From assembly GCA_029964075.1 (NCBI GenBank), contig CM057142.1, forward strand, positions 27,220,392 through 27,284,391: a stretch of DNA of 64,000 nucleotides. Reading direction: 5' to 3'. The notes under the pieces are model-generated. The model saw only the letters and a list, made by a program, of their open reading frames with translations. It was not told the origin of the DNA and made no database searches. This document shows, piece by piece, positions 1,666-40,600 of the stretch; within the stretch, counting starts at the first letter, position 1, and every line of letters starts with the position of its first letter. The DNA is from Patiria pectinifera (taxonomy: Eukaryota; Echinodermata; Asteroidea; Valvatida; Asterinidae). The translations under genes were made by a program, and so were the position numbers.

Positions 1666-4600
1666 GTAAGATTGCGTATGGTGTGATAAGTGTTCCGTGC
1701 CTGGTGCGTCTGGCTAGTTGCAGAGAGAGTGAACAATCTGTCATTGACAGGATATCTGTTGGAACAACAAGGGAAGTGGTTCGCTGAGTGACTGCATATC
1801 CTCCCTATGTCCTGAGCTGTGTTTCAGTGAAGCCCATTGTACAGAATTGTTTGAGGGAGTTTGTGTTGATGGTTAATGTTGCCCTTTTCCGCATTTAGTG
1901 CCAAATCCCTGTGCTGTTCCTGTGAAGTGAGACCAATTCTAGGAAAACCTAGAAGGGAAACTCCACTTACATGAATGTTGCCAATGATCACAGTCTTTTT
2001 GAGCACGTTCAGTGAGAAATTGTTCTTTGACATCTGCAAAATTGACTGGCTGTGACTGTTTATGTAACTTGATACAGCTATGCTTTGACTTTAGGTGATT
2101 GATAAGCCAGCTGTGCCTACCACTGCTTTTGTCTGTTGACTGAATTTGACTAGTCACACTGCTTGCTTGAAATATGATTTGACTGTTGGTGACTAGCCTG
2201 TGTAAAAGGCATGGCAGGGGAAGATTGATTTTTGACTGAATATGACTGTTCTGAATTGACAAGTCACAGCGCTTGCTTAAAATATGTTCTGACTGTTTGT
2301 GACTAGCCTGTGTAAAAGGCATGGCAGGGGAAGATTGATTTTTGACTGAATATGACTGTTCAGATAGCAGGAGGGTTAAAGAGGGAAACAGTTTGTGTTT
2401 TGTTGTTGTTGTTGTTGTTGTTGATATACAGCGATGTCACAAAAAAGGTAACAACATATGAACAGACAGCCAGTAATGGAAATAATGTACAAATCAAATA
2501 AGACATTTTTGGAGAAAAGTTCAAGTGTAGCAAAATAAGCCACAAAAATAATGGAAAGTGCAGACCATTAAAACTTTGTATACTTGTGTTTATGTTTGAA
2601 AAAAACAAACATGTAAATTTTGAATTAGATATCTTTTCTCATAAGAACCCAAATCAAAACTTTTTTCAGCCGACTCCACTGGTACCCACTCAGTCTATGC
2701 TACATACCAAGGCCACGAGATCATGTTCCACGTGTCCACGCTGCTGCCGTTCACCGCCAACAACCGGCAGCAGTTGTTGCGCAAGAGGCACATCGGCAAC
2801 GACATTGTCACCATCGTGTTTCAGGAGCCCGGCGCCGAGCCGTTCACGCCCAAGACGATACGCTCCCAGTTCCAGCACGTGTTTGTGGTCGTGCGGGCCA
2901 TTGACCCCAACACGGACAATGTGTTCTATTCGTGAGTCTCGGTTTCCGTTTTCCTTATATTAGGTTTCTTCTGCGGTATAAACATCGCTCAAATTTGTTT
3001 ATTTTGCTTTCACATGCTTTCAGTATGTTTCATTTTATGTGACTTTAAAGGTAGCAGGAAGAGCAGACCATTAGACATTGCTGCACTTCTTTTCGTTTGT
3101 AGCAACAAAAGTGCTCAAATCTAAAGACGGGTGTTTAACAACTAACCTGATGAAGCGTAAGCTCTGTGAATGCTGTATATTTTGCGAAAACACAATATTC
3201 TGGATCTTGATTTCAAATATATCAAATAACAAGGATCTATATGTCAGTTATATAAAACATTGAGTGGCTTTAAATTGTGAAATGGGAGGAATATTATCGC
3301 TCGGTAAAATCTGGACTTTTCCAGTTCACTCGGCTTGGCCTCGTGAAAGGGAAAGTCCAGATTTTACCTTGTGATAATATTCCTCCCATTCCACGCTGAG
3401 CCACTCAATATTTGTATACCATTGCACTTGACATCACCTTTTGATTTTCTTTGTTTTGATGTGTAGTGTTGCCGTGACGAGATCCAAGGATGTAGCAGCA
3501 TTTGGTCCTCCACTCCCTACTAATGCGACATTCCCCAAAGGACCAACCTTCACTGAATTCCTCCTTGCCAAACGTAAGTACGGTCAAGTGAAATCTTTGC
3601 TTAGATTTAAAAACAAAAAAAATAAGAAAAGTAAATATATAAATCAAATTAGGTTTGCCCATCACTGACGTTTAAACACTGCATACTCAGTGTGTTACCT
3701 CCCGAGTGAAAGTTGCAAAAAAATCACTCGGGTGGGACTCGAACCCACGACCTCCTGCTTTCTAGTGCAGATGTCTTACCACTCGACAACTGAGCCAACG
3801 GGATCGGTTGGCTGGTTCGAATCTGATGTACATAGCAGCGGGTACCGCATAAACTATTATAAGATGGAATATCGGTGAAGGGCAAAACCTAATTTGATTT
3901 ATATCACCCGACGCAAAATTCCATCTTATAAAAGTAAATATATGTTGAATATGTTTTGTTCAATATTTACCTACTTTCTGACAAAAATTTTCATTTTGTT
4001 TAAATGTTTATTAATCTGTTTGAAATATAATATCAAGTGAAATATTCCTAGACTTTAAATTAAAATCTTAGCCGAAGAGCAACGATTTGCAAAAAACAGG
4101 AGAACTTCAACAATGTTGCCTTGATTATATTCAATTTATTACATTTTGGAGTCAATTTGGGATGATGTACTTAAATACTTGAAGTTGAAATTTTAAAATC
4201 AACTTGAAAGGAATAGTTGAAAAGATGTTGCAGTTTAAGGGAAAATGAAAGTGAATTGTCAAAAACCCTGTGACTGATTTTTTTGTGTTTCCCCGTTTTT
4301 AGTCATAAATGCAGAAAACGTCGTCCACAAGTCTGAGAAGTTCATCGCCATGGCGACCAGGACGAAATGCGAATACTTGAAGGACCTGGCCGAGAACAGC
4401 GTGACGACGGCCACCGTGGAGTCCGGGGCAAAGTCCAGCAAATTCATCCTGTCCCACAAGAAGAAAGAGAAGACGTGCCCGAACCCGGCGCCCGATGTCC
4501 ATTGCAAGGGGGCCCTCGTGTGGCGAGTTGAGGTGAGGTTTTAATTGGAGAGTGTGTTCCAATATTGTAATTTTGTTTTTGTATTACAGGATGATGAATG

Positions 4601-7600
4601 TGCACGATAATGCTCATAAATGGCAAATTTTTGCTCATAGAAAAATGAAATCACGCTGTTCCCAGCACTTGGAAGTTTTCGCCAAAGTTTCCAAGTTTTT
4701 GGCCATTGTCCGTATTCTCACCCACATAAAGTCCAAATTCATCAGGATATCAAAATAAGTGGTCATAAGATTGATTTTTTTTTGGTCGGGGTGATGTAAA
4801 TCAAATTAGGTTTTGCCCTTCACCGACGTATAAACACTGTATACTCAGTGTGTTACCTCCCGAGTGAAAGTTGGAAAAAATCACTCGGGTGGGACTCGAA
4901 CCCACGACCTCCTGCTTTCTAGTGCAGATGTCTTACCACTCCACCACCGAGCTAACGGGATCGGTTGGCTGGTTTGAATCTGATTTAAAAAGGGCTGTAT
5001 TAGGGCAAAACATAATCTGTATTAGGGCAAAACCTAATTTGATTTACATCACCCCTACGCAAAAAAATAAATATCCATCTTATGAATAGTTTATGCGGTA
5101 CCCGCTGCTATATGTACATCAGATTCGAACCAGCCAACCGATCCCGTTAGCTCGGTGGTCGAGTGGTAAGACATCTGCACTAGAAAGCAGGAGGTCGTGG
5201 GTTCGAGTCCCATCCGAGTGATTATTTTCCAACTTTCACTCGGGAGGTAACACACTGAGTATACAGTGTTTATACGTCGGTGAAGGGCAAAACCTAATTT
5301 GATTTACATCACCCCGACGCAAAAAAAAAATCCATCTTATGAATAGTTTATGCGGTACCCGCTGCTATATGTACATCAGATTCGAACCAGCCAACCGATC
5401 CCGTTAGCTCGGTGGTCGAGTGGTAAGACTTCTGTACTAGAAAGCAGGAGGTCGTGGATTCGAGTCCCACCCGAGTGATTTTTTTTCCAACTTTCACTCG
5501 GGAGGTAACACACTGAGTATACAGTGTTTATATGTCGGTGAAGGGCAAAACCTTATTTGATTCACATCACCCCTACGCAAACAAAAAATTCCATCTTATG
5601 AATAGTTTATGCGGTACCTGCTGCTATGTACATCAGATTCGAACTGGCCAACCGATCCCGTTAGCTCGGTGGTCGAGTGGTAGAGACATCTACACTGGAA
5701 AGCAGGAGTGGTATATCAGTATGAAGTTCTGATTGTGCTCCTTCAAATACATGAAAAACAACTGAGTGAGAAAGTCCAAAACACTTTTCTGACATTAGCG
5801 CTTTTTCGGAAGGACATAATTTTCTCAACAATTTGAAAACCTTCCTGTCCAAAGCGTTCAAGTGACTGTTTCCAATCGGTTAAAACTTCTCAACTTCTTA
5901 AACTCATCCTTATTTGCTCTTTTGCCCCTGGCCTCCTTTCCTCCTCGCAGGTCTATCTTTGGTCCCCCATCTGGACTGACCAGGACGATAAGGTGACACG
6001 AAAAAGAAAGAACAAATATTCCAAAAATTTTTCATTTTGTGTGGTGGTTTATCGCACCCCTCTTCCCTTGCAGTTCTGTTTGTTGCATGGAACGGTGGCA
6101 TGCTTCACGACACATGTGATACTGGGTGTGTAAAAAACAACACAAACAAAGCAACCACGCCCACATCCCAGCATTTGTGTTTGTTTTACATTTGCTTGAA
6201 AATATTTGTTTAGAGATTGGAATTCGGTTGATTGTCACAGTTAAAAATCATGTCCGAGATACGATTGTTTCATTTTCACCTTGATTTCAATATTCACAAT
6301 TGTATATTTTTATTTTTTGTATTTATTTTTTTGGCATATTGAAGGTTTTTTTTTTAGCATGTTGGTGGTTTTATGAATTATTTCAGTGAAGGGTAAAGCC
6401 AAATTTGGAATTAACATATTTCCCTGATGCAAATTTCATCCAATGGAATGGTTCCTCATATATTCGGAGTTTCTTGCATAAAGCAACAGACGTTGCGATC
6501 GCTACATGTAAATGCCTGAGTTTTGCTTCAGTTGTTTGCACCATTTTGAGTTCTAATTTTACAATCATACTTCTTGAGCGGCTTAAACACCAATGATTTT
6601 TTTTATTGTCTATTCTGTCAGAAATCTAATTTAAATTTTCCTTTTTTTTTAATGTATGTTTTCTTTTAAGTTCAATTTGTACAATTCTGTTCAAGTTTCA
6701 TAATCTCCCCTCAGTTGTGTTGTTGACTTATTTTGGTGTTTTAATTTTTGAGCTGCAGGATAACAGCCCAACAAATCATGTGTTTCTAGTCCATTAGTTA
6801 GTAACAAATGTTGACATTGTCATATTTTGACCGATTTCAACCAAACTTTGTCGAAAGTATCAGCAGCCCAGCCCCAACATGTCACATGACCAAACTGGGG
6901 TCAAAGGTCATCATGGGGTCACTCAAAACACTGCTCCTTCTACAAACTACATGGCACAATCACGTGACTCGTGCACGAACACAAATTCGTCTGAGATCCG
7001 ATCAAGCTTGTGTCCTGACAACGTGAGGTACCGGTACCTCTGTTTGTGCTCTTCACCATACAGGGTGGATTAAAAAAAACGAAACCGAGATATTATTGCT
7101 AATTGTAACGGGAGAAGGGCACATGTGAATCAAAGGGAGATATCCTCTGTTAGGGTCGAATCTCCTCTTTAAAATGACACCCTGATCGTGTCCTTACATT
7201 CACGGTTGACTGAGCAGCGACCAGTTTGATGAAAGGGTCTATTTAGAGGCTTGCGCCACTTTTTATGGTGAAATCTCTTTTTCCCCCACCTGCCATTTTA
7301 GCCTTTCACTCTGTGACAAATGACACCACAAAAACCACAATTGAAAAGTGACGCAAGCCTGTAAATAGACCCTTTCGTAAAATTGGTCACTGCTCAGTCA
7401 ACCGTGAATGTAATGACATGATCAGGGTGTCATTTTAAAGAGGAGATTCAACCTTAACAGAGGATATCTCCCTTTGATTCACATGTGCCCTACCTCTGTT
7501 CCAATTAGCAATAATATCTCGGTTTCTGTTTTTTTTATCCACCCTGTATAGTATTCAACTGTTTTTTTCTCCGAACAAATTTATAAAATTTGTACGTGTC

Positions 7601-10600
7601 TGTTTTATTGTAAATGGGATTTGGGACATTTTCAACCCTGTTATTTTGGGTTGCTTTTGTGCCCATAATGCGGAAAAAGACACGTCTGAATTATTGAAGA
7701 GCCACACATAATTCAACATTTGTAAAGAAAATATCCCATACCTAAACGTGGGCAGGTATTTTTGTTTGATGTCTCAGTCAAAAGTGAACAGCTTTTGTAC
7801 TGCAAGAAAAATAGCAACTTTAAAATTAAAATATATTTTTCGGGATGAAGCTGTAAAATAGTCTGCACAAAGACAGCAACTTTAACTGCCATACCCCCAG
7901 AATTTTCTGTTGAAACAGTACAAATGAACTATGATTTTATCTCGTACCGGTACGTAACGTGTACCTGTGATATTCATTGTATTTGTTTCAAAACCATTTG
8001 CATTGTGGCAAACTTCTGTAAAAATTCATTTTGGTTGCAGTGAATGTGAACTCATCTCAAAAGCTACATATTTAGAAGAAAAAAAATAATAAATAAAGCT
8101 CACCAACAGCAGGTGTTTACTTCACAAAACTTCATCACAAAAAGGTATAATTGTTGAGACCTTTGTCATTGCAAATGTGTACAAATCTGTTTGGTTTTTG
8201 TTCACCGAAACCCTTTCATTTGTTTCACTGCCCAGTACTCTTACCTCCAAAATCTGCTTGCTCTTGAATTGCTCTAGTTATTATTATTTGTAAATATGGA
8301 TGCTCAGTAATTCCCATCATAAAGACAAAAGTTTACCAAGATGAAACTAAAGTTCCCACAAAAGTTCATATTGACCGTATTTGATTATGTGATTATTGAC
8401 ACGGCAGTTGTCGCATGTTCAATTGTTTATGACTTTCCCCCTGGTTTACAAGCATGTGTCCTACCCGTGTGGAATTTCTCAAGTCTTCCTTAAAACCATG
8501 GTATTGATATTTTGGTCGATTTGGTTGTAATTTTGGAAAAGATTTTGAGCATGACAGCATGAAAGTGAACTACATGGAAACAGTGGGTAGATGGAGTGGT
8601 CCGTTATCTTTCCTGCATTCTTACTTGCACGGGAATACCAAAAAAAGTTGCACTTATTTTCTTGGGTTACATTTTGTGTGTGTAAATGCTCCGCACTCAT
8701 TCAAGTTTGATTTTTGCAAGGGAAGTATTTTTTTTCCTGTTTGCAAGTTATTTGTGTACCTTTAAAATTGTTGAACTGCATTAAATTGTTTAGCTGCAAT
8801 AGTTCGTTTTGTTTTTCATTTACTCATACTGGTACCGGTACATTTGCTCTGGAGGTGTTTAACTCTTTTGTGCAGTTTTGAACATGTTCTTTTTATAATG
8901 ACAAATTGAGGGAATATGAAAAAAAAGACACAGGGATAAAAAAAAAAAAACCTGTAGAAATAGATTTGCCATTTGACTACAGTGATGCGAAGAATAACAT
9001 GCAAGAAGAAAGGGAAAGAAGTAACTGTAATGGCTAATAAATCTAAACCAAATTGTGTCCACAATTTACAATGTTCATGTACATGTACATTGTAGCTGCC
9101 AACTGTAGTCTGTTTCCCTGACTTCTTCCACCTGTAGCAAGGGTGACAAGTTTAGTTTGTCAGAACCTAACTCTTGCCTGGCTCCCTGACTTTTTATATG
9201 TTTAACTGGTGAATGAGTTTAGTCTGTCGGGCACCAGCTGCCCAACTCAGTCTTGCGCCCTGACCTTTCCTCATGTATTAAAGGTGGATGAATTTAGTCT
9301 GTTAGACATAGCAACCGAACTCATGTTTGTATCCCCAACTTCTTCCTAGGCTTTTCCAAAATCTGTAGTTTTTGGTCTGTGGCTTCCTTTTTTTTGCCAT
9401 TGGTCCACCTAGGGAATAGCCATAGCCAGAGGCAGCAATGCTCATTTCTGGACTGAGCTGCCCAACTCACGTCTTGCTCCCTGACCTTTCCCCATGTAAG
9501 GTGGGTGAATTTAGTCTGTTAGACATACATGTAGCAACCCAACTCATGTCTGTATCCCTGACTTCTTCCCAGGCTGTGCAAAAATGTGTAGTTTTTGGAC
9601 TGTGACTTTGTTTTCTGCCATTTGTCTGCCCAGGAAAGTAGCAGTAGCCGGAGACAACAATACTATGGCCGTGTCCGAAACAGGCTTCCAGTCTATAGTC
9701 GGCTTGTTCCCGCATAGTTGTAATAGACAAAGACCCAGACAATTGCTCTAGGTTTGAGATTTGGATGTGGCCTAATTTTTGAACTGGCCTGAGCCGTGCT
9801 AACTTATGTCTTTCTCCCTGACTTCTTCCTGTGTATATCTAAGGTGGATGAGTTCAGTCTGTCAGACCCCGTGGAGTGCATCTGTGCCGTTTCTCCGGAG
9901 CTCTTTACTCTCGTCAGAGAAACCAGCAGGGAGGTCATCTTCAGCATTCCCTGCAAGGCCATCATAGGCTGGACGGACATTCACCACAAGTAAGTCGGCA
10001 TGCTATTAGTGAAAAACAGAAGAAGTCGGTCACCGGCAGTTTGTATACGATACCTTGGCTGGTATCACATGATATTTTGGCTGGTAACCATGACATTGGT
10101 CCCTGATTTTATGGCAAAGCCCTTATTTTAGCTCTGTCGAAAAATGCCATTGAATGGATTTTTCTTCTGCAAATTAAAGAACAAAAGTCAAATTTGAAAT
10201 GAGAAAAAACACTATCCAGTCTTAAAAATATTTATGTTGTTTTCTTGAAAACTTTGAAAAATGAGGATCCTAATTCAACATTTGAAACTTAGTTAATCCT
10301 AATCCTGTTTTTGTTGTAGTGGTTTATTGGAAAGGTCATAATTAACGTGATGCCTAAAATTAGCAAGTCACCTTTATATTTTTTAATTTTTTTTTTGGAG
10401 GGGAGCCGCATCCAAAAAGCATGGACGTGTATTAACTTTAATTGTAACCAGGAAAGCAAGAAATAGATAAAATCTGAATGCAAGAAATGCCATGCAAATT
10501 TTAGGCATCACGTTTGTGGGTTGCTGTGGCCCAATGGTTACGGTGTTCGACTCGTGTGCCGTGGTACATGGGTTTGAATCCTGACGGGGAACATGGTGCT

Positions 10601-13600
10601 TGTGCTCTTGAGCAAGGCACTTAACCATTATTGCTTCGTCCTTCGGATGGGACGTTAAGCCGTAGGTCCCATGTGTTTTGTAATTAAAGAACCCAGTAAC
10701 ACTTAATGCAAAGAGAAGGGGTTTGCCCCGGTGTTTCTGGCAGTGACTCGCTCTTGGCCAATCAAGACACAGAATCTGTGGGTGAGGTGTTATCAACTCA
10801 ACTATAACTCTGCTTTTCAGCGCATAGTTTCACAATTTTTCTCTCCTTTTTTTTTGTTTATTTTAGTTTGAAGGTTTACTTCAATGAAGGGAACTGCGTA
10901 CGGATACGCATACCTGACGAGGAACTGGATGAGATTCCTGGAATGGTGAAAAGACTGGAGGCCGTCACCACGGGAGTCAAGGTGGGTGGAAACCAGACTA
11001 ACATCGCCTAGTCCAGCTGGATCCGAATGTTTCTGGACGTAACTTATACTTGGTGACTCAGTCATTCAGTCAGTCAGTGACTCGGTCAGTCGTAGAGCAC
11101 AAGGCCGGCTGTTCTTAAAGAACAAGCAAAACAAAGTTTCCCCATCAACCCTAACCCTCCTCAATCCTCCAAAGGCCTCCAGGCGGTTTTGGAGGATTTT
11201 GGAGGATTTTGGAGGATTGAGGACGAATGCAACATACAGTTTTGGAGGATTGTGGAGGATTGAGGGCACATGGACATTCAGTACCGGTTGATTTTGGAGG
11301 ATTGAGGATGAATGGTGTTTGAAGAAGAGGAGGATTTCGGAGGATTGAGGATGAATGCATTTTGAGAGGCAGGGCAGTTGGAGGATTTTGAAGGATTGAG
11401 GCAGTTGGTATCCTTCATTTGAACAAATATGCAAGTGCAAAATTTTGGAGGATTGAGGATGGTTCCTAGCAAAAAAAGGGCCGGGGGGTAAGGGTTATTA
11501 AAGCAAACGTGAGCTTACCCAACAAAGTGAGTGTGAAATTGTGACAGCTCAAGCCCTTAAACATGCATCCACAAATAACCGACATGCGTTCACTTGCATA
11601 TGACTTACACATCTACCTCGTGCATTGTGGCATTGGAGAAGTGCACGTGATCGTGCCCATGTCAATTGTGGAGTATGATGGACTTGGGCCTGGAGGCCTA
11701 AAGCAAAGCATGCATTGGAAGCAGTGTGATTGATGGATTTTGCCCTCTTTATCTCTCCCCACAGACCCAAGAGATCACCTTGCTTCGCAACGGTCTTGGC
11801 CAGCTTGGATTCCACGTGCACTACCAAGGCATAGTGGTGGAGGTCGACCCCTATGGATGGGCGTGGCAAGCTGGGTTAAGAAAGGGGGCCCGACTCGTCG
11901 AGGTGAGAAATACCAGCTGCAACTGCCGTGTTACACACATATGCCTGAACAATTGATTGTGACTTTTGATTTTGATTCTCTGGGTTTTTTTTAGTTTAGT
12001 CTGAGGAAGGATTGATTTTGATCTTGATTCCTGATTAGTCACTGGAGTTGTATAAAGAACATTGTTTATTCGAATTCAGGAAAAAAATACCCAGTTATAT
12101 TCCAATAATGATCTTTTCGTAAGATGGACATTTTGTTGGTTTCATGTCAATTCAATAATGGGTTTTGCCCTTCACCGACGTATGAAATGCAAAATCAAAT
12201 ATTGAAATTACATGTGCTATGGAATAGAGAATGTGATTTTGATTTTGATCCAGATCACCTAAATCTGGAAAATTTTGTGTACATCAAATTCAAATTCTGA
12301 TAATAATTTTGATATGATCATTTGTATCTGTTAGATCTCTGTGTGGTCTCAAACACATTATGAATTAATCATTTTGATTTTGATTTTGAATTTGATCAGC
12401 TGCATCTGTCATATCACTGTCTCCTCTCAAACACATTATGTTATTACGAATTCTAACTTTGATTTTGATTCTGATCATACAGATCTGTGAGATCGCTGTC
12501 TGCACACAAACCCATGATGAGATGATCGATCTGCTCAGGACGTCACAAACGGTCAAAGTCCTGGTCGTGCCGCCCCATGAAGACGGCAGCCCAAGGAGGT
12601 AAACGTGGCATTAAATTGATCATTCTATACCCAGGAGCCAATGTTTAAGCCTTTCCTCCCAAGGAATTTTGCTATCCTTCCTAAATTCTTAGAGTACACG
12701 GAAAACCTCCCTCTTTTGAATCCAAAACCTTCACCAGTACAGTAGGAAAGTCAATAGTTTTACAGAGCATAGAGCCCCATGTCGAGTAATAGTGACTAAG
12801 CTTTGCACACTGCAATCCTGCCCCCCAAAAAACCAAAGCTACTGATGGATTTTGAAAGATCTTTACGATTTTGAAAGATCTCCCCTAACTCATTAAAATC
12901 GAATTGTTTGTGGCCAAACTGTGGGGCGCTGTGGTCCAATGGTTACGGTGTTTCCTGACCGTGGGAACATGGTGCTTGTGCTCTTGAGCAAGGCACTCTA
13001 CCATTATTACTTCGTCCTTCGGATGGGACGTAAAGCCGTAGGTCCCGTGTGTTGTGTAATGCACGTTAAAGATCCCAGTGTACACTTGTCGCTAAGAGAA
13101 GGGGTTTGCCCCTGTGTTTCTGGCAGTGGTAGCAATATGCGCCGCAGCACCTAGCAAGAAGGTGCTACATAATGGGTCTCATATGTTCATGTACTTCATT
13201 TTCCTGTCTTTTGTTGCATTCTCCCCTAGCACTTTGTATCCTTTGGAAAAGGCGCTAAATAAATACGGTTATTACTGTTATTATTATTAAACAAAATGGA
13301 CTATTAAAAGTATAAAAAACAAAATGGACTATTAATAGTGTAAATGGCAAAGTAGTCTCACTTAATATGCCCATACTTTTGAAAAATGTACCCATTAGGC
13401 ACTTTCACACTATCATCTCACCTACCTGTGTAGAGTTCTACATGGGTCTGCGGTCAGCTTACCCGGGTCATATCAAACATGGGTAGGCAAGGCATACCGT
13501 TCACTCGGTTTGTACACGGGTCAGCTGTAGATTTTAGATTTGCTACCTGGGTAGAGCCTCTCACTCAACCCCTGGTCCCGTCCAGGGTTAGATTCTTGCA

Positions 13601-16600
13601 AGTGTGAAAGCAATTTCCCAAAATCTCTTGTGTTAGACCCGGGTCCAACATTTATTGGTAGGCATGGGTGGCTTGTGCGTAAAGCGCTCGCCTCTCACCA
13701 AGGTGACCACGGTTCGAATCCTGGCCGCGGATCGCATGTGAGTAGAGTTGTGCGTTGGTTCTCTCCTGTGCCACGAGGCTTTTTCTCCGGGCCCTCCGGT
13801 TTTCCTCCCTCCGTAAAAATCAAACACTTTCGATCTCAGGCTGTGCTCCGTGGTCATATATGGGTCGATGTGGCCGGCAGCCATAGGCGCATATACGTGC
13901 CAGCGGCCCTACCACGTTGTAGCCGCGTCCTTCGCAATTCAGCATACCAGCAGCGAGTAAGGATGATTAGCCTCCCAAATTAGTATTAGTAACATGGAGA
14001 TTGTAGACAGTGTGAAAGGCCCTGTACCCAATACTTCCAATTTTGTAAATTTGTGTCTCTCTTCCCTAGGGGTAGCACGCCCATTGACTACGACGCTTCC
14101 CTCCCGCATACGGGCAAGACACCGTTCAACCGTAGTTGCAGCAGCGGCAAAGGAGGACACAGCTACAGGGCACCTATAACCATCCAACGAGGTAATTCCA
14201 GGAGAAGAAAAAATTTCTAGCTTTGCAAACTTTTCTGGTGGAAATCCGCGGAGAACCTGTTACAAGAAGTATACATTGTGTTACATTTTGGCTGATACTA
14301 TCAGAGCTAATACCTCAGTTAACTGTATTGACACCCAGTCATGTGTTATGTTATACACTGTGTGAGCATTTTAACTCTACACCCAGGTTTTTTTTTTTAA
14401 CATGATCCTTCTGGCATCCTCTGAAATCAAAAGCTTTGTTAGAAACCAGAAGCATATTCTTTGTCCTTCAACTTAACGTGGCATCCAGGACCATGTGAAA
14501 TAAAAGTGGCAGGGCATGTCCTTCATCAGTCCTCAAAATCATCCTGGTGGATTTTTGAAGTATCAAGAGTGCGGGTTAAACGACTTTCCTTGGTTTTTTT
14601 TCAACCCAGATGGCAAGGCCGGCCAAGGTTCTCATACCAGATCCTTCACCACGCCTGGTACCCTGCCTTCATCATCTCACACGCGCACGCCCTCAGATCT
14701 GTCGCGCTCCAGCGAGGACCCGGACGCCGCCTCGAGCAACGCCGTCCGCAGCGCCATCGCCACGTTAGAGCGCCGCATCCACCACCAGCCCGAGTCCCGC
14801 GCTGGGGGCGGGCAGGGCCAGCATCGCTACCGCGCTACGGTCAACTACTGGAAGGAGGTCAACCAGGCCAATCGCACCGGCCTGCGAGGGGACGGGAGTC
14901 TGCTGTCCTCGTCAGGCCACGGCACCTTGGACAGCCGCAGCTCGCGGGATGGCAAGGAGACGGCCTTCTCGCGGATGGCCCACGACCGGCGCAGCGCGCG
15001 GGAGATGCGCACTACACCCCGCATGCACGACACGCCGGCCAGATTACGCAGCTCCCAGGAGGAGCTTGAACAGATCTCGGCACTGGCCGCGGTCCGGCAG
15101 GCTAACATAAGAAGCTCACAAGAGGAGCTACACAGGGTAGTGCCCGTCGGGTCACACTCGCGGCAGAACTCGACGGAAGATAAACTGGATCCTCATCCGC
15201 GAGGCAGAGGTACCCAAAATTTTATCAGAAACAGTCATTCGGGAAATCTCCTCTATTTGTAGAGATAGAGAGAGAGTGAGACATTGTTTATTTTAATGTT
15301 CCATATCTTCAAATATTGATTTTAATCAAAAATTTTCAAACTATTCAAAACTGTCAAAAACATGGCAAAACAGAGAACTTTTATTGGTAATTGTTTCAAT
15401 AAAACGCAATCTGAAAGCTGTTGTGTATTTTCTTATCAATGCAATTTAAAAAAAAATAGCAACATGCAGTGGAAAAGTATGTAGCTTGAAACTTCCTTTT
15501 TCGCTGACTGTCTAGTTTTGATGATTGTTTTCATCGCCACACTCCATTTTTCTCCCAACAGTGTTGTCGGATTCTTCCAATTCGCCGTGGCAGCGGCAAG
15601 CAAGACCTCCGCAATCAGCGACCTTCCCAGAAAGCAATCGGAACAGAACCAATCCTGCATTTGTAACTCCAAACAGTCACTACAGAGGGGTAAGTTCTTG
15701 AGTCAAGATTTAAAAAAAAAAAGGCCTGAGACACAGTTGCATCATACTTTATTTCCTATGGGAGTATTGTGGCTCTCGTCCCATGGCTCCTGGCTTCATA
15801 GGAAAACGCACATGAAAACAAATCTCTCTCCTGCCATAGCGAAAAGAATTCTAACACATTTTTGCATATTTTTACCTGACGGAGGAAGCTGAAATTTTGC
15901 TTACATATTCCTTGTGTCCAGAATTGTGCCTGCGCTGGGTTTAGAAAAGGCAAATATGTCTGCGGGCGGCGTGTTCACCGAAAATAAACCGCAATCTCAC
16001 GCTTTCGTTCAAAACATTTTCAGTACAAACTCCCAGTGTGAAGATTACGCGCGCGCGTGCATGCACACCTAGCACGCTGCAGCCACGGCAGCAAGCGGCA
16101 GCAAACGGCACGTGCGTGTACGTCTTCACGCAGGGGGTTCGTACTGAAAATGTTTTCAACGAAAGCATAGAACTTGCTGTTTATTTTCGGTAAACACGCC
16201 TCCTGCGGACATATTTGCCTTTTCTAAACCCAGCGCAGGCACAATTCTGGACACAAGGAATATGTAAACGAAATTTCAGCTTCCTCTGTCAGGTAAAAAT
16301 ATGAATAAAATGTGTTATAATCTTTTTCGCTATGGTGGTAGAATTTATACCCTGGACGTCAGTCATAATGCAATGAAGATGTCGTTCAAACTGGGCTACC
16401 CATAACCCTGTTCCAACTGTTTGTGAAGACCCTGCTGAATCCAACATGATCCAAACAGAAAACTAAAACATTGACCCTTTGTTTACTGCTCAGCGCAACA
16501 TAATCCAATTGAAAATTGCTGCTCTTGAGATTTTTCAGTAAAAATTGTGTTTTTCCCCCAAGGCCTCTGTCAAGCATTCGCGTAGTGGAGACACCCTCTC

Positions 16601-22600: not shown

Positions 22601-25600
22601 AATATCAAATTTTTCAACTGAATGTTCCCTTACTGTGCAGGCATTTTGTATGAAACGCAATGACTTCCAATACATTGAAGTGACTAACCTGGCAGTTCAG
22701 TCAAAAAACAATCCTTTACATTGTTGCCATCTTGGAGTTGTGAACTGTTGTTCCTCAAGATCGTAATCATTAGTTTCTTGTTAAAATATTAAATTGTTCA
22801 TACCATGGTCACACTTTGTTTTAGGCCGCCCTACCCCGTGAGCATGCTCAGTCCAGCAGGCTGGACCCCCTGCATCGTACCTACTCGGACGAGAGCATCG
22901 CGGCAGGAGGCGGACCGTACAACCGCCCAGGCCATCACGACGGTTACAACGTCGAGCTCGCCACTGACGTACTGTTCACAAGTGCCAAGATGCCTCAACT
23001 AGAGGGTGCCCCAGTGCCTGATAATCAGCAATACAAAGGTAAATTTCAAGGAATTTTGAGTTTTGCTCCTCACCGACACAATTTTCAAATTTCATTTATC
23101 CGCATTCATTTGAGCAGGGTTGTGATTTGTCAGGATATTTCCGGATTCCACGATTTGTTAAATTAAAAAGATCCCTTTTGAAATATGGAATTTCAAGAAA
23201 TTTTGAGTTTTGTCCCTCACCGACACAATATTCAAATTTCATTTATCAGCATTCAGTTTAGCAGGGTTGAGATTTGTCAGGATTTTTCCGGATTTCACGA
23301 TTTGTTAAATTAAAAAAAGATCCCTTTTGAAATATGGAATTTCAAGAAATTTTGAGTTTTGTCCCTCACCGACACAATTTTCAAATTTTATTTATCAGCA
23401 TTCAGTTTAGCAGGGTTGAGATTTGTCGGGATTTTCCCCCAGATTTCAGGATTTGTTAACCCAAAAAATCCCTTTGGAAATATGGAATTCTTGAGATTTT
23501 TCCATAATGGTGTCATTAACTTTAAAGGTTAATGTAGAACAACAGAGAAGGCTATTTTTAGGGTGTACTTTAATAGGCAAATGCAAATATGTATCGTAGA
23601 CCATATAGATGTTTAAAAAAAAATCCCTTTTGAAATATGGAATTCTTGAGATTTTACCATGAAGGTGTCATTAACTATAAAGGTTAATGTAGAACAACAG
23701 AGAAGGCTATTTTTAGGGTGTACTTCAGCAAATGCAAATATCGTAGACCATATAGATGTTGCTTTGGGGCCCCGGCAGCCCCCAAACCCTGTGCCGATTA
23801 TTTCGTGGATTTTGTTCATTTTCCCCCAATCTCATTTCAGTTTTAGCAGAGGTGCAATTTTTTTTTTATAATTCCAATATTTAATGTTTTCTAAGTGAAA
23901 ACCAGGTTATCAGCCAACAGTGTAATAATGTTGTGCATCGGGTCAGATTATAGACATAAACCGAATCCGAACCGAAACTGATCTGAACTCCCCAAATCCG
24001 ACCCGACCCGACAATACCAGTCACAGTGACTCTGCAATGATATTGCACCAACTGAATTTTTGAACTGTTTTGGGGTTTTTTTTCTTCGGGTGATTCACGA
24101 GATGGCTTAACCAACCCGGCCCGGGTCAGGTCGGTTTCGGTTTCAGGTCGGGTTTGCACAACATTGCAGTTTGATTGGTTCCAATTTTCAGTTATGCATA
24201 GCACAATAGTCTTGCTACAATTTAGTTTTTGTGCAGCAGCAAGATAAAAATTGGGAGCAGTATTGGATTGTACCGTAAAGGTGGTTTTACCTGTAAAAGT
24301 TTATATAGAACAAAACGAACGGGTATTGTAAGGGGTACATTTAGGCAAATTACAAACATATACCATAGACCCATTGCTCAAATCCTCTGCCAATTATTCT
24401 GTGATGAGATTTGAAGGTTTACATGGTGGAAAGATACTAGGACAAGATAAGTTTGCGGTAGCACCATGTGAATAAATCTCTTTTGTGAGTATGTGTGGTT
24501 CTGAAAAGAACCGGAGGGACTCAACGTTTCGAACAGTATGCTCTGCCCGTCGTCAGGGGAATGAGGGATTCCAACGATGATGCGATGTTATAGGGATGGG
24601 CGCGGTGAGGCGTGAGAAGGATGCAAACTGGTGAAGCTCAAAACCGGTGAAGCTGAGAAGGATGCAAGATTCGTTGGAATCCCTCATTCTTCTGACGACG
24701 GGCAGAGCATACTGGTCGAAACGTTGAGTCCCTCCGGTTCTTTTCGGAACCACACACACTCACAAAAGAGATTATTCTGTGAGTTTTTCAATTTCCCCCA
24801 AATTTCACCCCTGGCTTTTATTCTTGGAATTTTTGTTGTTGTATACCCATTCCTTCCCAGATATTACATGTAATATAATTTAATATAATTTTCCTTTAAA
24901 ATTTTCGTTGAAATTTTTTTAACGTCTGCATGCCTTTCCTTGTCTCTCGTTAAGTTGTACGATTTGCTGCTCACCAACCGATAAGGACTACTAACCAACA
25001 CAGGAAAAGTAGGTTTTTATTAAAACAAATGTGTGTGTTTGCCTTGCAGAATAAGAATGTTTTTGTGTGTTCACTCAAACTGTTAACCAAAAAAACACTG
25101 CCTTGCGTGACGTGTGCTAAGAAAAATGCATGCAAACTGTGGTGACCCTTTTTTTTTTTTTTTGAAGCAAATTTTGCAAGCTTGTTTGCACTTGAATATA
25201 AGAGGCACTTAGAAGGTATGTTGCTAATTAGCAGATGCCATAAACCCACATATGCCATGTAGCCAGGGTCATGCCAAAAGTCATGATGCTACTGTAGCAA
25301 CATAAGCAATGTCTTGATGCTACTGTAGCAACATACATGTAAGCAATGTAATGATGCTACTGTAGCAACATTAGCAATGTCATGATGCTACTGTAGCAAC
25401 ATAAGCAATGTCATGATGCTACTGTAGCAACATTAGCAATGTCATGATGCTACTGTAGCAGCATTAGCAATGCTGCAAACCTGGGAAATTTAGCAAATGG
25501 GGATCACTCAGAGAGAATACTTGTACATACATGAAGTTGTGCTACATGTTTGGTCAACGCACTATTAAATTAATGACCTCTAACAAAAACACTGCATCTT

Positions 25601-28600
25601 GGTTTGTTTGTAACCTGCATTGTGTGCTTGTCACATTCAACAAATGCCACTTCCATCATGATTGTGAGTGTGATAAACAAATAAATTGTTTACATTTATA
25701 TCTGCACTTGAAGTAAAAAGTTAGTCAGTTGGTTTACTTTCTATTTGATGTTTGAGGTCGCACATCAAACCATCACCGCTTCATGGTTTGTGTACACACA
25801 CATGTAGAAGTACATGTACTGAAAGCCCTTTCTTATAAGATTGTGGAAAACGAGGCAAACAAATTTTTTTTAGGTATCGGTAGATAGTCTGTCACAGTGC
25901 TGCACTTTGTTAACTCTTTCAGTGCCCGCGAAATTTGAAAAGTTTAACCCTAAAGTGCCCAACTTCAAGCATTTTTGTTAATTGTTCAAAATTCTGTAAA
26001 AAAAAAAAAGTAAATAAGTTTTACTCACTAAATTTGTTGTTGTTGCTCTCTGGTATATCCTTGGTACATTGGAAAGTCAATAGTAGTCACGTACATAGTG
26101 ATACACCCTGAAACACTTTCCTGCACACAGGGGAATTCCGCACTTTTTGCAGAAAATACGAGTGTCAGTGCTGCGCCCTCTCGCAAGAACTCGAATAAAA
26201 AAATGTAAAAAAAAGTTCGTACATGCATGAAAATGGTACCACTAGAAAGAGCGAGAGTGCCCCCTTTTGATAACATATTTACTCTACCTCGTACATGTAC
26301 GAGGTTTGGCAATTTTAAGTACGAACATTACCTCGTACATGTACGAGGTTGGCGCTTTTGTACTAACAAATATACCTCGTACATGTACGAGGTTTGGCGA
26401 TTTTAATCACGAACATTACCTTGTACATGTACGAGGTTGGCGCTTTCGTACTAACAAATATACCTCGTACACGTACGAGGTTTGGCGATTTTAATCATGA
26501 ACATTACCTCGTACATGTACAAGGTTGGCAATTTCGAACTAACAAATATACCTCGTACATGTACGAGGTTTGGCGATTTTAATCATGAACATTACCTCGT
26601 ACATGTACAAGGATGGCAATTTCGAACTAACAAATATACCTCGTACATGTACGAGGTTTGGCGATTTTAATCACGAACATTACCTTGTACATGTACGAGG
26701 TTGGCGCTTTCGTACTAACAAATATACCTCGTACACGTACGAGGTTTGGCGATTTTAATCATGAACATTACCTCGTACATGTACAAGGTTGGCAATTTCG
26801 AACTAACAAATATACCTCGTACATGTACGAGGTTGGCGATTCTAATCACGAACATTACCTCGTACATGTACGAGTTTGGCACTGAAAGAGTTAAAGTCAA
26901 GTCCTTGTAAATATCTGCATTTTACCAGCACCAATTTGAAGTTTAAACCGGTAGATAGTATTCGTCATGGTTATTTTGGTAGATTTTGTTGTTGTTGAAT
27001 GTTCTTGATGACTGTAATTCATAATCAAGAAAGTTTACTGTTTCCTCTGTATAAACTGTTCTTATAATACAGAAAGTCTTACAACCATGAGGCCAAACTA
27101 CTACCTATTTTTTCGTTCGTGTACATGTATGTAATAATAATAATAATAATAATGAACACTTGGTAAAGCGCCAGTATCCGCCAGGCATGACGCTCATGGC
27201 GCATACATACAAAGAAAAACATTAATTACAAAAACGACGTAGACACAGATGGGTTTTGAGGTTAGATTTGAATGTAGACAGGGATTTCTTTTGGCGTAGT
27301 TCAAGTGGGAGATTGTTCCAAAGTTCCGGGGCAGCATGAGCGAAAGACCGTTGGCCCCACGAGTGATTGGTACGAGGGACAGTCAATTGATGTAGTTCTT
27401 GTGAACGAAGATTACTGACTGGCTGGTACAATGTGATTAAGTCATTGATGTAACTGCATGATGTACGGTACAACTGCATGTGGAAGGAGACACATGCACT
27501 TCAAGTTGACTGTGTCTTCAACTGAGTGGTTAATTCCATGTTGAAGAAGTGGTGATGTTGAAGTTTGTTTTGAAGAACAAAACCCTTAAAATGCATGGTG
27601 AAGGTGAAAGGGGGTACCGTACCGGTAGATACATTTTTTACTGCATGAAAAAATGGAGGATCCTGTTGCCTATCCTTCCATTTCTCCTCCTGCTCTGGGA
27701 TGTATACACCCCTGCTTTAACCCTAACCCCCCCCCCTTTAAGGATTTTTGTTGTGAAGTGCATGTTACTTCCTGAATTGTCCTAAATCACATGTTTGAAA
27801 GCAACAGCACATTCGTTTTTATACAACTTTCATGCATTTAGTATCTAGCATTCATAAAATTCGGCCAGCGGAGGACAAAACCCAGTATTGAAGTACACTC
27901 CCTGGTGCAAAATTTACATCAAAGTCACAACTTAAATATGTTTAAAAATTGGGAGGTGCTTTAGTATACCAGTACAGTGGAACGCTGCTATACCGAACAC
28001 TGCTATACCAAACATTCGGCTATACTGAACATCATCCTTGGCTACCGTTACAAAATGTACCGAACATCGTTGCTGAAAAAAGTCAACAGATTAACACTAC
28101 CGGTTGTACATGTATTAAACACTGTTTAGGCTACTTTTAATTTCCGAACATCAAACCACCCATGGCTATATCGTGTTTGAATGTTGAAGAGCAATAGCTG
28201 GGTATTATTTCCCCAAGGAATAAAAGGGAAAACCACCCTTTGCTAAAGTTTTGTGACAACACCTCATGCGGCCGCGGGATGTGAGAAATGCCATTTCAGT
28301 GACTTCACTACTTCACTATTGGTCAAAAGAGGGTACCGGCGGTTCAAAATCGCTATACTGAACGATCGTTATTACGAACACTTTCTGTGGATCCCACGAT
28401 ATAGCGGCGTTTCACTGTAGCTCATTTCAATTACTGCATGGTAATTTGCAGTTGTCTTCCGACAATATGAGCAAGTTCAGGCAAAAACCGTAGTTGACCT
28501 TAGTTCAACTAACTTCACTTGAATGGAGGATAGTTGGACTACTTCTAGTCGACTATTTCAAACTGAACCCCAGGGCACAGTGTTATCGCTTGTTACCAAT

Positions 28601-34600: not shown

Positions 34601-37600
34601 AAATCGTGACGTAATAAACAGGGCTCCCGATGCAGGGTAGTATAAACAAGTCCTGTTTATTAAGTCACGATTTACTATTTTTGTTTGCTGCCCCCAACAA
34701 CGACTTTTACACAAATTGCACGTTCGGGTCGAAACAGGACCTGAAAAGCAGCTCTCAAAAGTACCTTCTGTACTCATTTCATGACAGACACAGTAGTCAT
34801 TTTTATTTCATCACACCTTAGGCTACATATACCCGAAAAATGACGGAAATGTCTGCGAGCATTCCACAACCTCTTTTAAAGCGCATAGTTTGTTTCAATC
34901 CTAGCAATTTAAGAACATCTGACTCATTCTTACAAAGCTGGTCACACTTGTGGATTTTATTACATGTACTTTTTAATTGCTCCCTAAAGACTCGGAACAT
35001 ACTGATGGATAGGACTCAAGACGAGTCTTCCCCCGCCCCCTCCTAAAAAAAAAAACCATTAGCAACACCCCATACATGTATAACCTGCTACTTGTTCCAT
35101 ACTATGACTCATTTTAAATTAAGTTAGTTTTTTTTTTCATCGAGTTCAATTTCGGGATACAAAGGAAGTAAAAAAAGGAACATGACCTCCCCTTAAAAAT
35201 AGTCAGTAACGTCATTTCCGTGTGTCCTTGCAACCAGAAGGATAGAGCGTATGTTCCCCTAATTAGAGTAAGGCTGCTGCATGGCAAAGAACCAGTAGGG
35301 TTTTGGGGGGAGGTAAGGGGGGTTCTCAGAGTAAAAATCTTTCCTCTAGATAAAAGTGGTCTCAAGCAAAATTGTAAAATATGGGTCAAATAAAAAAGGT
35401 AGTTCTGGTAGCAATCACCTTATTGACGGAGAAAGCAAATTAAAATGTGTGCTACTAAATAAAATCTTGAAATCTTTTGGTTTTTATTTGATTACCCTCA
35501 ACACAAAATGTGTGGTCTTTCTTAAAAAGCAGACAAATACCATGTGGTACATTATAAAAGTTGAAAGGAAGTTAAAATAGGGTTTTTATTAAATGGTTTC
35601 TTTTTTTTTTTGGCAAACTGTGCCACGTTGAAAGGCCAGCCAAATTGTAAACGCTCAAACAAGAGGTGTTATCTGCCCTCAAACAAGAGGTGTTATCAAA
35701 TCAGTAAGAACACATAGCACTGACTTTAATCATTCGAAACTGAAAAAAAAATTTAATGACAGTGTGCTTCAAGTCAGGTAGATCTTTAAATCTTCAATGA
35801 ATTTCTGTCGTCAACAACAGTGATGCTTCTCTAAATGTGACTTTAAAAAAAATGGACTGATATTTGCAGCCTAATATTAAAGTATCATCATCATCATGGG
35901 TGTTGTCACTCGCAGACGTTTTAAAGAGGTTGTGGAATGCTCCTAGACATTTCCGTCATTTTTCGGGTATATGTAGCCTAGGGTGTGATGAAATAAAAAC
36001 GCCTATTGTTTCTGTCATGAAATGAATACAAAAGGTACTTTTGAGAGCTGCTTTTCAGGTCCTGTTTCGACCCGAACGTGCAATTTGTGTAAAAGTCGTC
36101 GTTGGGGGCAGCAAACAAAACATAGTAAATCGTGACGTAATAAACAGGACTCCCTATGCAGCGTAGTTCCAGCGAAACTTTTTGTAAATCACTCCGCGCA
36201 ACGACATGACTTTGTTTACAATTACTCTGAGCGACATTTTGTATGGGCAGCCACATGCTCCATAAATTCAACCGTAGTTGGCAACAGCTTTTACCCCTGA
36301 AATTCTAATGGGCAAGTTCAGAATTTAATAGGAAGATATCTCCGTTGACTTTTTGGTACTTTCTATTGATTATTCAGTGTTTTGATAGTTACACATCATT
36401 TTATTTATAGATCGGGGATCATTCTTTTGTGTTTGCCCTAACGGCCAACCATAGTAAGAAATGTCTGCGTACATCAACATCGTTCGATCGTTCACGTCAC
36501 ATGCACATATCGCATCACCGCGCGTGACACGCGCTATGTATGTAAAGGTGGCTGGAAATTCACGGGTGTACTTGTGCCGCTGGCCCGGCCGCTGGGACCG
36601 TAGATTTTAACACCGGTAAACGGTGTTGGAATTTCAAAATAATTCGTTGTTGATACGTGTACGGGTAGCGAACGCACTAGGCCAAGGCAAACCTATATGC
36701 CTATAATTGTGTCAGTCGCTGGTTGTAATCACACCACATTTTGTTTGCAACAAATTTCCAGCTTTCCTGTCCGGGTGTCAGCATGGAGGAATAAGAATCC
36801 TCTGCCATGCAGTTTGTCCGAAGGGTACCGTGATGCGAAAACACGAGATCGGATTTCAGCCAAATTAAACAGTCGTTGTATAAACGAGTCCTGTTTATTA
36901 CGTCACGCTTTTTCTGATTTTACGAAGAGCCCGACGACTGTTGATTTCAATTATGCGCTCGCCGACCAACAAATTACTCGATGAATTTCAGTTTTATAAA
37001 CATATAAACGCACATTAGAAAAGAATGGGAGTTTGTCATTATGCTATATATGGGTCTACTCTACAATATAAAAATATAAAAAACAAAACGATTTTCAGCA
37101 TTCCACAACCTCTTTAAGTCCATTGTGATTCGTGGCGCCAAAGCCACGCGTTGAGCTCTTCCCGGTTGAAGAGGCTGCGCCTAACTTGCATTTCGTCCAG
37201 TCCGCCCAGGTCCTGGCCGAGGGCTATCCACTGGTTCCGGGCGTATTTATGCTCGGCCTTGGTGAACAGCTACTGTTCTGCTCGCTCGAGTTGGGTATGC
37301 GCGTAATGTGCGCCATGTACTTGACGTGCTGTTCTAGACGGAACTCGCTCGCTCGCTCGCCTTCTCCAGAGACTGTGACGGTTTAATTACATGACAAAGT
37401 TTGGAAATCATGCTTTGATCAAACTTTTTTTACAGACGATGATGTCATTCAAGAGTCTGCCTCATGTCACAAACTAAGACATTAGTAGCACACGATTTAA
37501 CTGTCGGAATTGCTTGATCAATGCTCGGTCCATTGTGGTGTGTGTATGACAAAGGCTATAGTATGTGTTTGACAGGAACCCAAGTTGTTGCCAGTGACCA

Positions 37601-40600
37601 ATTGGGAATTACATCACAGACCGAGTACATAGATACACCAGCCAATGAACATGGTCCATTGTGGTGTGTGTATGACAAATGCTACAGTATGTGTTTGACA
37701 GGAACCCAAGTTGTTGCCAGTGACCAATTGGGAATTACATCACAGACCGAGTACATAGATACACAAGCCAATGAACATGGTCCATTGTGGTGTGTGTATT
37801 ACAAATGCTACAGTATGTGTTTGACAGGGACCCAAGTTGTTGCCAGTGACCAATTGGGAATTACATCACAGACCGAGTACATAGATACACAAGCCAATGT
37901 ACATGGTCCATTGTGGTGTGTGTATGACAAACGCTACAGTATGTGTTTGACAGGGACCCAAGTTGTTGCCAGTGACCAATTGGGAATTACATCACAGACC
38001 GAGTACATAGATACACCAGCCAATGAACATGGTCCATTGTGGTGTATGGTGTATGACAAATGCTACAGAATGTGTTTGACAGGGACCCAAGTTGTTGCCA
38101 GTGACCAATTGGGAATTACATCACAGACCGAGTACATAGATACACCAGCCAATGAACATGGTCCATTGTGGTGTGTGTATGACAAATGCTACAGTATGTG
38201 TTTGACAGGGACCCAAGTTGTTGCCAGTGACCAATTGGGAATTACATCACAGACCGAGTACATAGATACACAAGCCAATGAACATGGTCCATTGTGGTGT
38301 GTGTATGACAAATGCTACAGTATGTGTTTGACAGGGACCCAAGTTGTTGCCAGTGACCGATTGGGAATTACATCACAGTCTCACAGTGGATAGAAGCTGG
38401 TATCATTGAGTGTTGCTTCGGTAATTAGAATGGAGCCAGCTATTAGTCCAGTAAAGCCCCAGTTTTATTCCCAGCCCATTTCCTGCGATTAGGAGGATCT
38501 TAAATGGCCAAGTTTGGGGTTTGAATTTAATCTCTTGTGATAAGGTGATAATGACTTGAGCTTGGCTGAAGGTTGTTCCTTTTTGGAAGTACATGTACAG
38601 TACCTTTTTGTGGTTGCAGAGACATTTAGCATACGGTTCTCTTTCTACCTCGACAATTGATGTAACTGACAAACCTGCCAAACCATTTTTTTCCTGTAAA
38701 GCCTGGACACTCTGTGCTAACTTATGTCATGTTCTTCAGTTTTATCCATGTTCACATTGTTTTGGCAGTTCACATTGTGTGCTGTCCACAAACGTCATAA
38801 CTTGAAACTTCTAAAGGCATTATAGGATCATTTGCTTTTATGTAATTTGTCCGTTTCAAACAACACCACTCAAAATCCAAAGAAGAATGTTCAAAGCCTA
38901 ATCTGTTGAAGTTTCAGCCCAGCGGATATTACACTTTTCAAGAAAACTGAAAAATCATGCACAACCTTTGATCACGAAACACAATTTTGTCAATAGCACT
39001 CTTTATTTAAAAACACAAAAATCAGTTGATTGACTGATCGTTGGTAATCACCTACATTTCTGGATTCCTTTTTATGACCGCAAGCCAGACGGAACAATTT
39101 CAAGGGGTGTTTAGTACCAGTACAATCAAGTGGGCTTTTTGATAATAATTTGGTAGATTACTTTTGGGATAAATATGATCCTATTCGCCTTTAGCAGATG
39201 ATACGCACACAAAAACAATGAGTAAACTAGGAAACTATTTAAGATTTTATTGGACAGGTTTATTGTGCAATTCTGGTTGAGTTCCTGAAGGAAAGGTCTT
39301 AAGCTGGTTGAAAAGTAAACATTTGTAAACACCCATACTGGAATTTGTATCCTTGTGGAGACATTTCTTTTTTCTCGTGTAGTAAAGTTTTCGAGTTTGA
39401 AAGTGCAGTTTCAAAATGCTCTTATTTTGCCCAGAATTAATTTCCTTGGCTGAAATTCAGACTTCATATCTCTTTTCTAAAACTCTTCCATGTGCGACTG
39501 ATCAACATATCTTGGAAATTCCTAGTTTTTGAGTAAAGTCCTTATATCTATTTCGTGATAACCTTGTGGAGACGTATACAATCTTTTGTTCCCTATTGTG
39601 TGCATGTCTCCAGAGGGCACGGTGTATCAGATCTGATTTCAAGGGTTGTCTAAATGTATGCTTATCACAAATTGTCACTTGCATGGATCCGTAGAGAAAG
39701 AAATAGAATGTACTACCACAGTTTTCAGAATGTCATTACCAAAGCTTTTGAACTTCCCACTTCAAGACTGTTCAGCCGGAACTTGGTGTTTACATCCATC
39801 TTGAAAGGTGAACAAATCTGTTGCAGATAGCAGTAATAGACAAGGTCCATTTGAACTTTGTTTGATGTCAGAATCAGAGAAAAAGATGTTACATCATATT
39901 CAAACAATGAATCACATAGTGAATGACTGTCCCATTACCAAACTAGACGGAGGAATCGAAGCCCTACACAACTGCGAGGAAGCTGCCCTGGAGTGGCTGG
40001 TGGAGAGAGCGTGCTGAACGCATACGAAAACAACAACAGTGACAGGTGTCATTCACACATCGCTTAGCAACAGAATCACAACAATAGGCTAGTCACAACT
40101 TCTAGCAGGCGGCCTGAGGTTCCCCCCCCCCCTTTTACTTTTCCAGTCTTACTAAGCTTCTTTGCAAACCTTTTCCACTGCCTGAAACTGCGTCATTCCT
40201 CTGTTTTTGAGGCTTATCTCTCAATCCCTGTTTCAGGAAAAAAAATTGGCTAGTTAATTTAATCATTCCGACCCAATCTGGGCAGCGTCAGGCCCTGACA
40301 CGCAATCAGCGCCGATTCGTATCGGAGCGTGAGGGCCTGATGAACATGTCATCACCTTTTTTCTTTTGCAGAGTTGGAGGGGGGTCGCTGCTGGATTAGT
40401 CGCAAATTAATTACCTGTTCCTCCGTTGAGTGTGTGTTTCAAATTGTGCAGTGACTCTAATAGTCCGGATGTCATCAGGTGCAGAGTTGAAGTCGGGTCC
40501 ATCGAAAGTGAATCACAACACAAATCCCAAGTAATGTCAGAAACTTAGAGTGGATGAATAGTTACAACAAGGGCCGATGACAATGAACCTTTCATATGAA

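Follow-up and report, generated by a model that had tools for sequence, protein, structure and literature searches.

The SIPA1L/SPAR-like gene and the border copies

We analyzed a stretch of 64,000 nucleotides (G000:C14:27220392-27284391; hereafter the window) from an assembly of 1020 contigs that total 613.5 Mb. In the window, a SIPA1L/SPAR-like gene lies on the plus strand, and the intron preceding exon H of this gene contains decayed tandem copies of the intron–exon border at its own end. We describe these copies together with a companion array at exon E of the same gene and a third array in a kinesin gene, and we compare their frequency with that of local duplication in general.

Sixteen exons bounded by AG and GT were placed, with a single open frame across exons A-J and another single frame across exons K-Q. 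Nine of them (A, B, C, D, E, G, H, O and Q) were located by tblastn with a human relative as the query; exon M was backed by SPAR_C, and the remaining exons were backed by open frames and AG/GT borders. Pfam matches were obtained for Rap_GAP (116.2 bits; cut-off 27) and SPAR_C (25.9 bits; cut-off 25). Exon G matched PDZ_6 with 17 bits (E 0.0049), which is under the cut-off of 27, and exon H alone showed no Pfam match; the two exons split the PDZ domain between them. The order Rap_GAP, PDZ, SPAR_C expected of SIPA1L/SPAR proteins was present. The pieces of exon D and exon K gave no Pfam match. The frame was broken between exons J and K (15209-16563); therefore, at least one exon was overlooked or one border was wrongly placed there. 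The following parts of the gene are used below:

11903..12482, plus strand: G-H intron, 580 bases (gene model)
12483..12598, plus strand: exon H, which judging from its likeness to SIPA1L encodes the final part of the PDZ domain (open frame A-J, tblastn)
9844..9989, plus strand: exon E, with the genuine acceptor TATATCTAAG/GTGGATGAG (gene model)

Tandem copies of the exon H acceptor border

Tandem Repeats Finder (TRF) reported an array at 12306-12520 with a period of 79, 2.8 copies and a score of 205. A repeat search gave three units spaced 78 and then 79 bases apart, and the middle unit showed 65% and 73% identity to the outer two in gapless alignment. Each unit combines 40 bases of intron with 37 of exon, and the last one straddles the genuine acceptor:

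12286..12362, plus strand: decayed copy 1, exonic part 12326-12362 (repeat search, alignment)
12364..12440, plus strand: decayed copy 2, exonic part 12404-12440 (repeat search, alignment)
12443..12519, plus strand: genuine border unit, real exonic part 12483-12519 (repeat search, alignment)

The preliminary description had claimed that the border of exon H is repeated about every 79 bp in the preceding intron and had proposed an alignment at a period of 78-79. The repetition and its period were confirmed by TRF and by the spacing of the units. Shuffled intron sequence, with which it had suggested that the identity be compared, did not yield copies of this quality. The first 50 bases of exon H used as a query scored 46 against a shuffle maximum of 33, and a border query spanning -40 to +50 scored 70 against a shuffle maximum of 47.5; 0/5000 dinucleotide shuffles of the intron reached the observed score with either query. 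In contrast, the description had named the 3' border of exon H, whereas the copied one is the 5' (acceptor) border. The copy starts given earlier (12316, 12394 and 12473) mark the corresponding GATC of each unit; the splice point predicted from the open frame through exons A-J is 12482/12483 (CATACAG/ATCTGTGAG).

The exonic parts of copies 1 and 2 each agreed with the real exon at 29/37 positions and with each other at 31/37. Among the exonic sites that pair two of the units, four joined copies 1 and 2, two joined copy 1 with the real border and two joined copy 2 with the real border; the corresponding intronic numbers were four, five and six, so that the site counts favor no single order of duplication. 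A possible fourth, strongly decayed copy at 12229..12287 on the plus strand was not significant and is not claimed; it was dropped because its score of 38 was below the best shuffle (47.5) for a query of nearly equal span.

The position of the genuine AG is occupied by GT in copy 1 and by GC in copy 2; i.e., the AG is absent there in both copies. Copy 1 carries an in-frame TAG at the third codon of its exonic part. The spacing of 79 is not a multiple of three and copy 1 holds this stop; therefore, splicing to a copy would give a stop or a frame shift. Copy 2 contains an AG at 12398-12399, ending four bases upstream of the homologous place.

Companion arrays at exon E and in a kinesin gene

The intron preceding exon E holds a second array:

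9097..9569, plus strand: incomplete copies of the acceptor border of exon E, with border copies near 9139, 9206, 9281 and 9498

Each border copy includes some 24 exon bases along with the acceptor zone, and two further copies consist of the acceptor zone only (9318-9347 and 9541-9569). The copies at 9281 and 9498 showed 97% identity over 30 bases. The border query scored 66.5 against a shuffle maximum of 40.5, and the query with the first 50 exon bases passed narrowly (36 versus a shuffle maximum of 35); for all three exon E queries, 0/5000 shuffles reached the observed score. Exons E and H had been described as two independent cases, and this was borne out, as the sequences and the units of the two arrays differ.

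We then considered exons of two domain families elsewhere in the genome. They were hand-picked, before their sequence was known, from lists of 75 myosin and 130 kinesin matches, mostly as matches without stops and with short open frames. Of 40 myosin stretches, 39 were used; L058 was excluded because it was cut by the contig end. The starts of the sampled exons were set by a crude matrix around the domain match, and some of them scored poorly or lay at a distance from the match. The sample contains near-identical paralogues (e.g., L050, L051 and L055; L069 and L071), and the acceptors are therefore not all independent. No myosin acceptor (0/39) had an upstream copy at a score of at least 34, while one of 40 kinesin acceptors did; at a score of 36, the kinesin count was 0/40. 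The kinesin case is as follows:

L066:358-746: decayed three-copy border array upstream of the NLVDLAGSE exon, which starts at base 721

By repeat starts, the kinesin copies begin 106, 224 and 337 bases upstream of the real border, and each carries the acceptor zone plus roughly 24 bases of exon. Scores were 35 for the first-50 query and 43 for another query, which was positioned by the domain match; 0/2000 shuffles reached either score. This exon was chosen before its sequence was known, and its array places the process outside the SIPA1L/SPAR-like gene as well. The outcome envisaged earlier as speaking against the proposal, namely that no other exon behaves this way, was not what we found.

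Border copies compared with the local-duplication background

To compare acceptors with other sequence, we counted 50-mers that have a copy just as good in the 700 bases upstream, at a score of at least 34 or of 36. Clear copies were present at two of the 16 acceptors of the SIPA1L/SPAR-like gene (E, z 6.4; H, z 10.0) and at none of its 15 donors; no kinesin donor had copies (0/20). The end of exon A (2138-2174) weakly resembles the start of a downstream 110-base array, and 41/5000 shuffles do as well.

In the window, 186 of 2328 non-coding 50-mers had an equal upstream copy at a score of at least 34 (8.0%; 7.4% at 36); therefore, copies at two of 16 acceptors are unsurprising. The expected number was 1.28 at score 34 and 1.19 at score 36, and the probability of two or more was 0.37 and 0.34, respectively. 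Using the background within the gene (169/1707), 1.58 were expected (P 0.48). The background was 5.8% at 34 and 5.4% at 36 for 3504 50-mers from 19 other 10-kb stretches, and at score 36 it was 3.8% (18/468) in the myosin stretches and 2.3% (11/480) in the kinesin stretches; the last two values lean low because they were taken at score 36 and against an upstream target of only 300 to 575 bases.

Overall, three of 95 acceptors had copies at score 34. At backgrounds of 2.3, 3.8, 5.4 and 8%, the expected numbers were 2.2, 3.6, 5.1 and 7.6, and the probabilities of three or more were 0.37, 0.71, 0.89 and 0.98, respectively. At the 8% background, three is rather few (P of three or fewer, 0.049). 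Acceptors thus show no excess of border copies over the local-duplication background. The preliminary description had read the two cases as a recurrent process rather than chance; the similarity is indeed non-chance and spans the acceptor, but a process that acts on borders is supported neither by two of 16 acceptors (P 0.37) nor by three of 95.

TRF arrays with a period of at least 20 covered 8.4% of non-exonic versus 1.1% of exonic bases, and the exonic share lies only at exon H. Among exon-internal 50-mers, one of 100 had a copy at score 34, and its match was within the same exon.

Origin of the arrays and alternative explanations

We consider that the arrays were left behind by local tandem duplications that were undirected and chanced to include an acceptor, a reading to which we assign a probability of about 0.82. 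Replication slippage or unequal exchange would have produced a local tandem duplication, in a genome rich in such duplications, and a unit of about 79 bases would by accident have covered the end of the intron together with 37 bases at the start of exon H. With the last acceptor staying in use, the upstream copies would have turned into intron, where they would be tolerated and decay. Using an upstream copy would add 79 bases or meet a stop, and loss of the copied AG may therefore have been favored. This mechanism of duplication, the selection against copied AGs and the sole use of the acceptor at 12483 are what we infer from the sequence. Premature AGs near intron ends are reported to be avoided in Drosophila and, by asymmetry patterns, in other eukaryotes (PMC10946897).

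Several observations weigh against this reading. The intronic parts of copies 1 and 2 agreed at 19/40 positions in gapless comparison, a count that a register slip lowers, whereas agreement between their exonic parts (31/37) was higher. The AG of copy 2 scored 5.6 versus 3.6 for the real acceptor, and six intron AGs (that of copy 2 and five others) outscored the real H acceptor under a matrix built on 16 sites, which is too crude for deciding which AG splices; the site in use therefore cannot be told from sequence alone. The AG was retained in three of four exon E copies (by alignment) and in all three kinesin copies, i.e., in 6/7, so that AG loss is no general rule. Finally, all three border arrays lie at acceptors versus none at 35 donors, in a sample too small to separate asymmetry from chance, and the donor of exon A is borderline (41/5000 shuffles).

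The alternative that survives best, although we regard it as unlikely, is a process favoring acceptor borders, e.g., slippage on pyrimidine or TTTTGAT tracts. The occurrence of two cases in one gene and a third in a kinesin gene, all at acceptors, would fit such a process; however, three of 95 acceptors is not more than the 8.0% and 5.8% found for non-coding or random 50-mers at a score of at least 34, or the 3.8% and 2.3% of the sampled stretches at the stricter score of 36. Slippage at TTTTGAT-rich tracts, which had been offered as an example of the cause, was not supported, and we reject it as a common cause. When up to one mismatch was allowed, the plus-strand hits of TTTTGATTTTGAT in the window (eight, overlapping) were confined to the G-H intron, and the minus strand had a single hit, at 1149. 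TTTTGAT was absent from the exon E array and from the kinesin array, and tract slippage is therefore no shared cause. A tract with two mismatches lies no more than 60 bases from each of acceptors B and C, yet these showed no copies, and the exon sequence in which the H array ends has no TTTTGAT tract.

It is less probable still that the copies are functional, as alternative or decoy 3' splice sites or as binding sites for splicing factors that regulate exon H. The mutual match of the exonic parts and the usable-looking AG of copy 2 would be in keeping with a function, but the homologous AG is lost in both H copies, copy 1 has an in-frame stop, the step of 79 is not a multiple of three, and identity to the neighboring unit is just 65% and 73%. 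Chance likeness of low-complexity AT-rich intron sequence, which the TTTTGAT tracts within the unit and elsewhere in the G-H intron might have suggested, is refuted by the 0/5000 dinucleotide shuffles, including those for the exon-only query, which has no tract. An assembly artefact or haplotypes set in tandem can be practically dismissed, for although error had been considered for border repeats of lancelet PGBD5 (PMC3902484), neighboring units here differ at 27% and 35% of positions, far above haplotypes or assembly duplicates.

Relation to mirage minisatellites and to intron gain

The border copies have a known parallel in the mirage minisatellites of amphioxus, which are described for Adh3, the globin genes BflGb6 and BflGb9, and PGBD5 (PMC3087553, PMC3902484). 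These reports state that acceptor and donor borders can both be duplicated, that many but not all copies retain splice signals, and that regular splicing is reportedly undisturbed; the mechanism is left open (PMC3087553, PMC3902484). Alleles that differ in array length and somatic instability are further traits of mirage minisatellites. Like mirage repeats, the H array is minisatellite-like, and its tandem units (three, at spacings of 78 and 79) cross the intron–exon boundary with 40 intron and 37 exon bases in a unit of 79. Compared with the mirage copies, splice signals are retained here in 0/2 copies at H (the AG of copy 2 is four bases off), 3/4 at E and 3/3 at the kinesin exon.

Identity between units is where the arrays depart from the amphioxus examples. 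The units of BflGb6 are reported to be 81-100% identical and to undergo concerted evolution (PMC3087553), whereas neighboring H units share 65% and 73% and do not reach such high identity. We read the lower identity as age and not as a failure to fit the definition of mirage repeats, because imperfect border repeats are also counted as mirage in the second report (PMC3902484). Judged by their sequence, the H, E and kinesin arrays appear to be of the mirage kind in structure and older in appearance.

The hosts of the mirage cases described in these reports are cephalochordates, whereas the present genome is probably that of an echinoderm. A bindin query matched the genome with an E of 1e-33, and an open frame with the bindin core was read in L064; bindin is not known from outside echinoderms, and one paper deals with bindin in Pisaster sea stars. 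An echinoderm is therefore preferred to a lancelet, the first candidate suggested by the literature. A COX1 query gave no match in the genome. A GFP query gave none either, which is weak evidence, as the control genomes also gave none. No report of border copies of the mirage type in echinoderms was found in the one open-access library searched.

Mirage repeats were put forward as one way in which new introns arise, and were considered possibly general among cephalochordates (PMC3087553). The same report also presents the Rogers model, in which an intron is gained through tandem duplication of AG/GT proto-splice sites (PMC3087553). A case of intron gain by tandem duplication is reported for potato RdRp (PMC4974935). 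The arrays resemble such intron gain in that a splice signal is copied at the outset by tandem duplication; in contrast, the duplication here covers a single border of an intron that was already present, and nothing pointed to a new intron.

The finding is known in kind and its likely mechanism is ordinary; its value is that it probably carries a lancelet curiosity into another phylum, at a frequency in this sample that local duplication by itself would produce. We see an even chance that border-spanning duplications are a steady, undirected by-product in at least one echinoderm genome and not a lancelet peculiarity, leaving traces at a few percent of acceptors. If this were true, introns would routinely hold fossil copies of the following exon, a standing supply of spare acceptors for border shifts. 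Decayed mirage repeats in a second deuterostome phylum, at the ordinary rate of local duplication, would make a special mechanism unneeded and the rate measurable per genome.

Other repeats and features in the window

A 149-base unit is present three times at 23042-23489, beginning four bases past the end of exon M (23038); exon M itself is not clearly copied. This array can be likened to the PGBD5 array that was reported to abut a splice site. Matches to the stem-loop of the histone 3' untranslated region lie on opposite strands in an intron of the SIPA1L/SPAR-like gene, at 24472-24517 (minus) and 24731-24776 (plus), which suggests that histone genes or their remnants may be nested there.

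A tandem array of 257-base units at 5024-5708 holds tRNA matches (5149 and 5406), and further tRNA matches are present at 3724 and 4881; the array may represent a repeat family derived from tRNA. At 26285-26881, 6.8 copies of an 88-base unit form an array with the near-palindrome TACCTCGTACATGTACGAGGT twice per unit. At 37518-38393, a 126-base array of 6.7 copies has one frame open for 291 codons, and its unit of 126 is a multiple of three.
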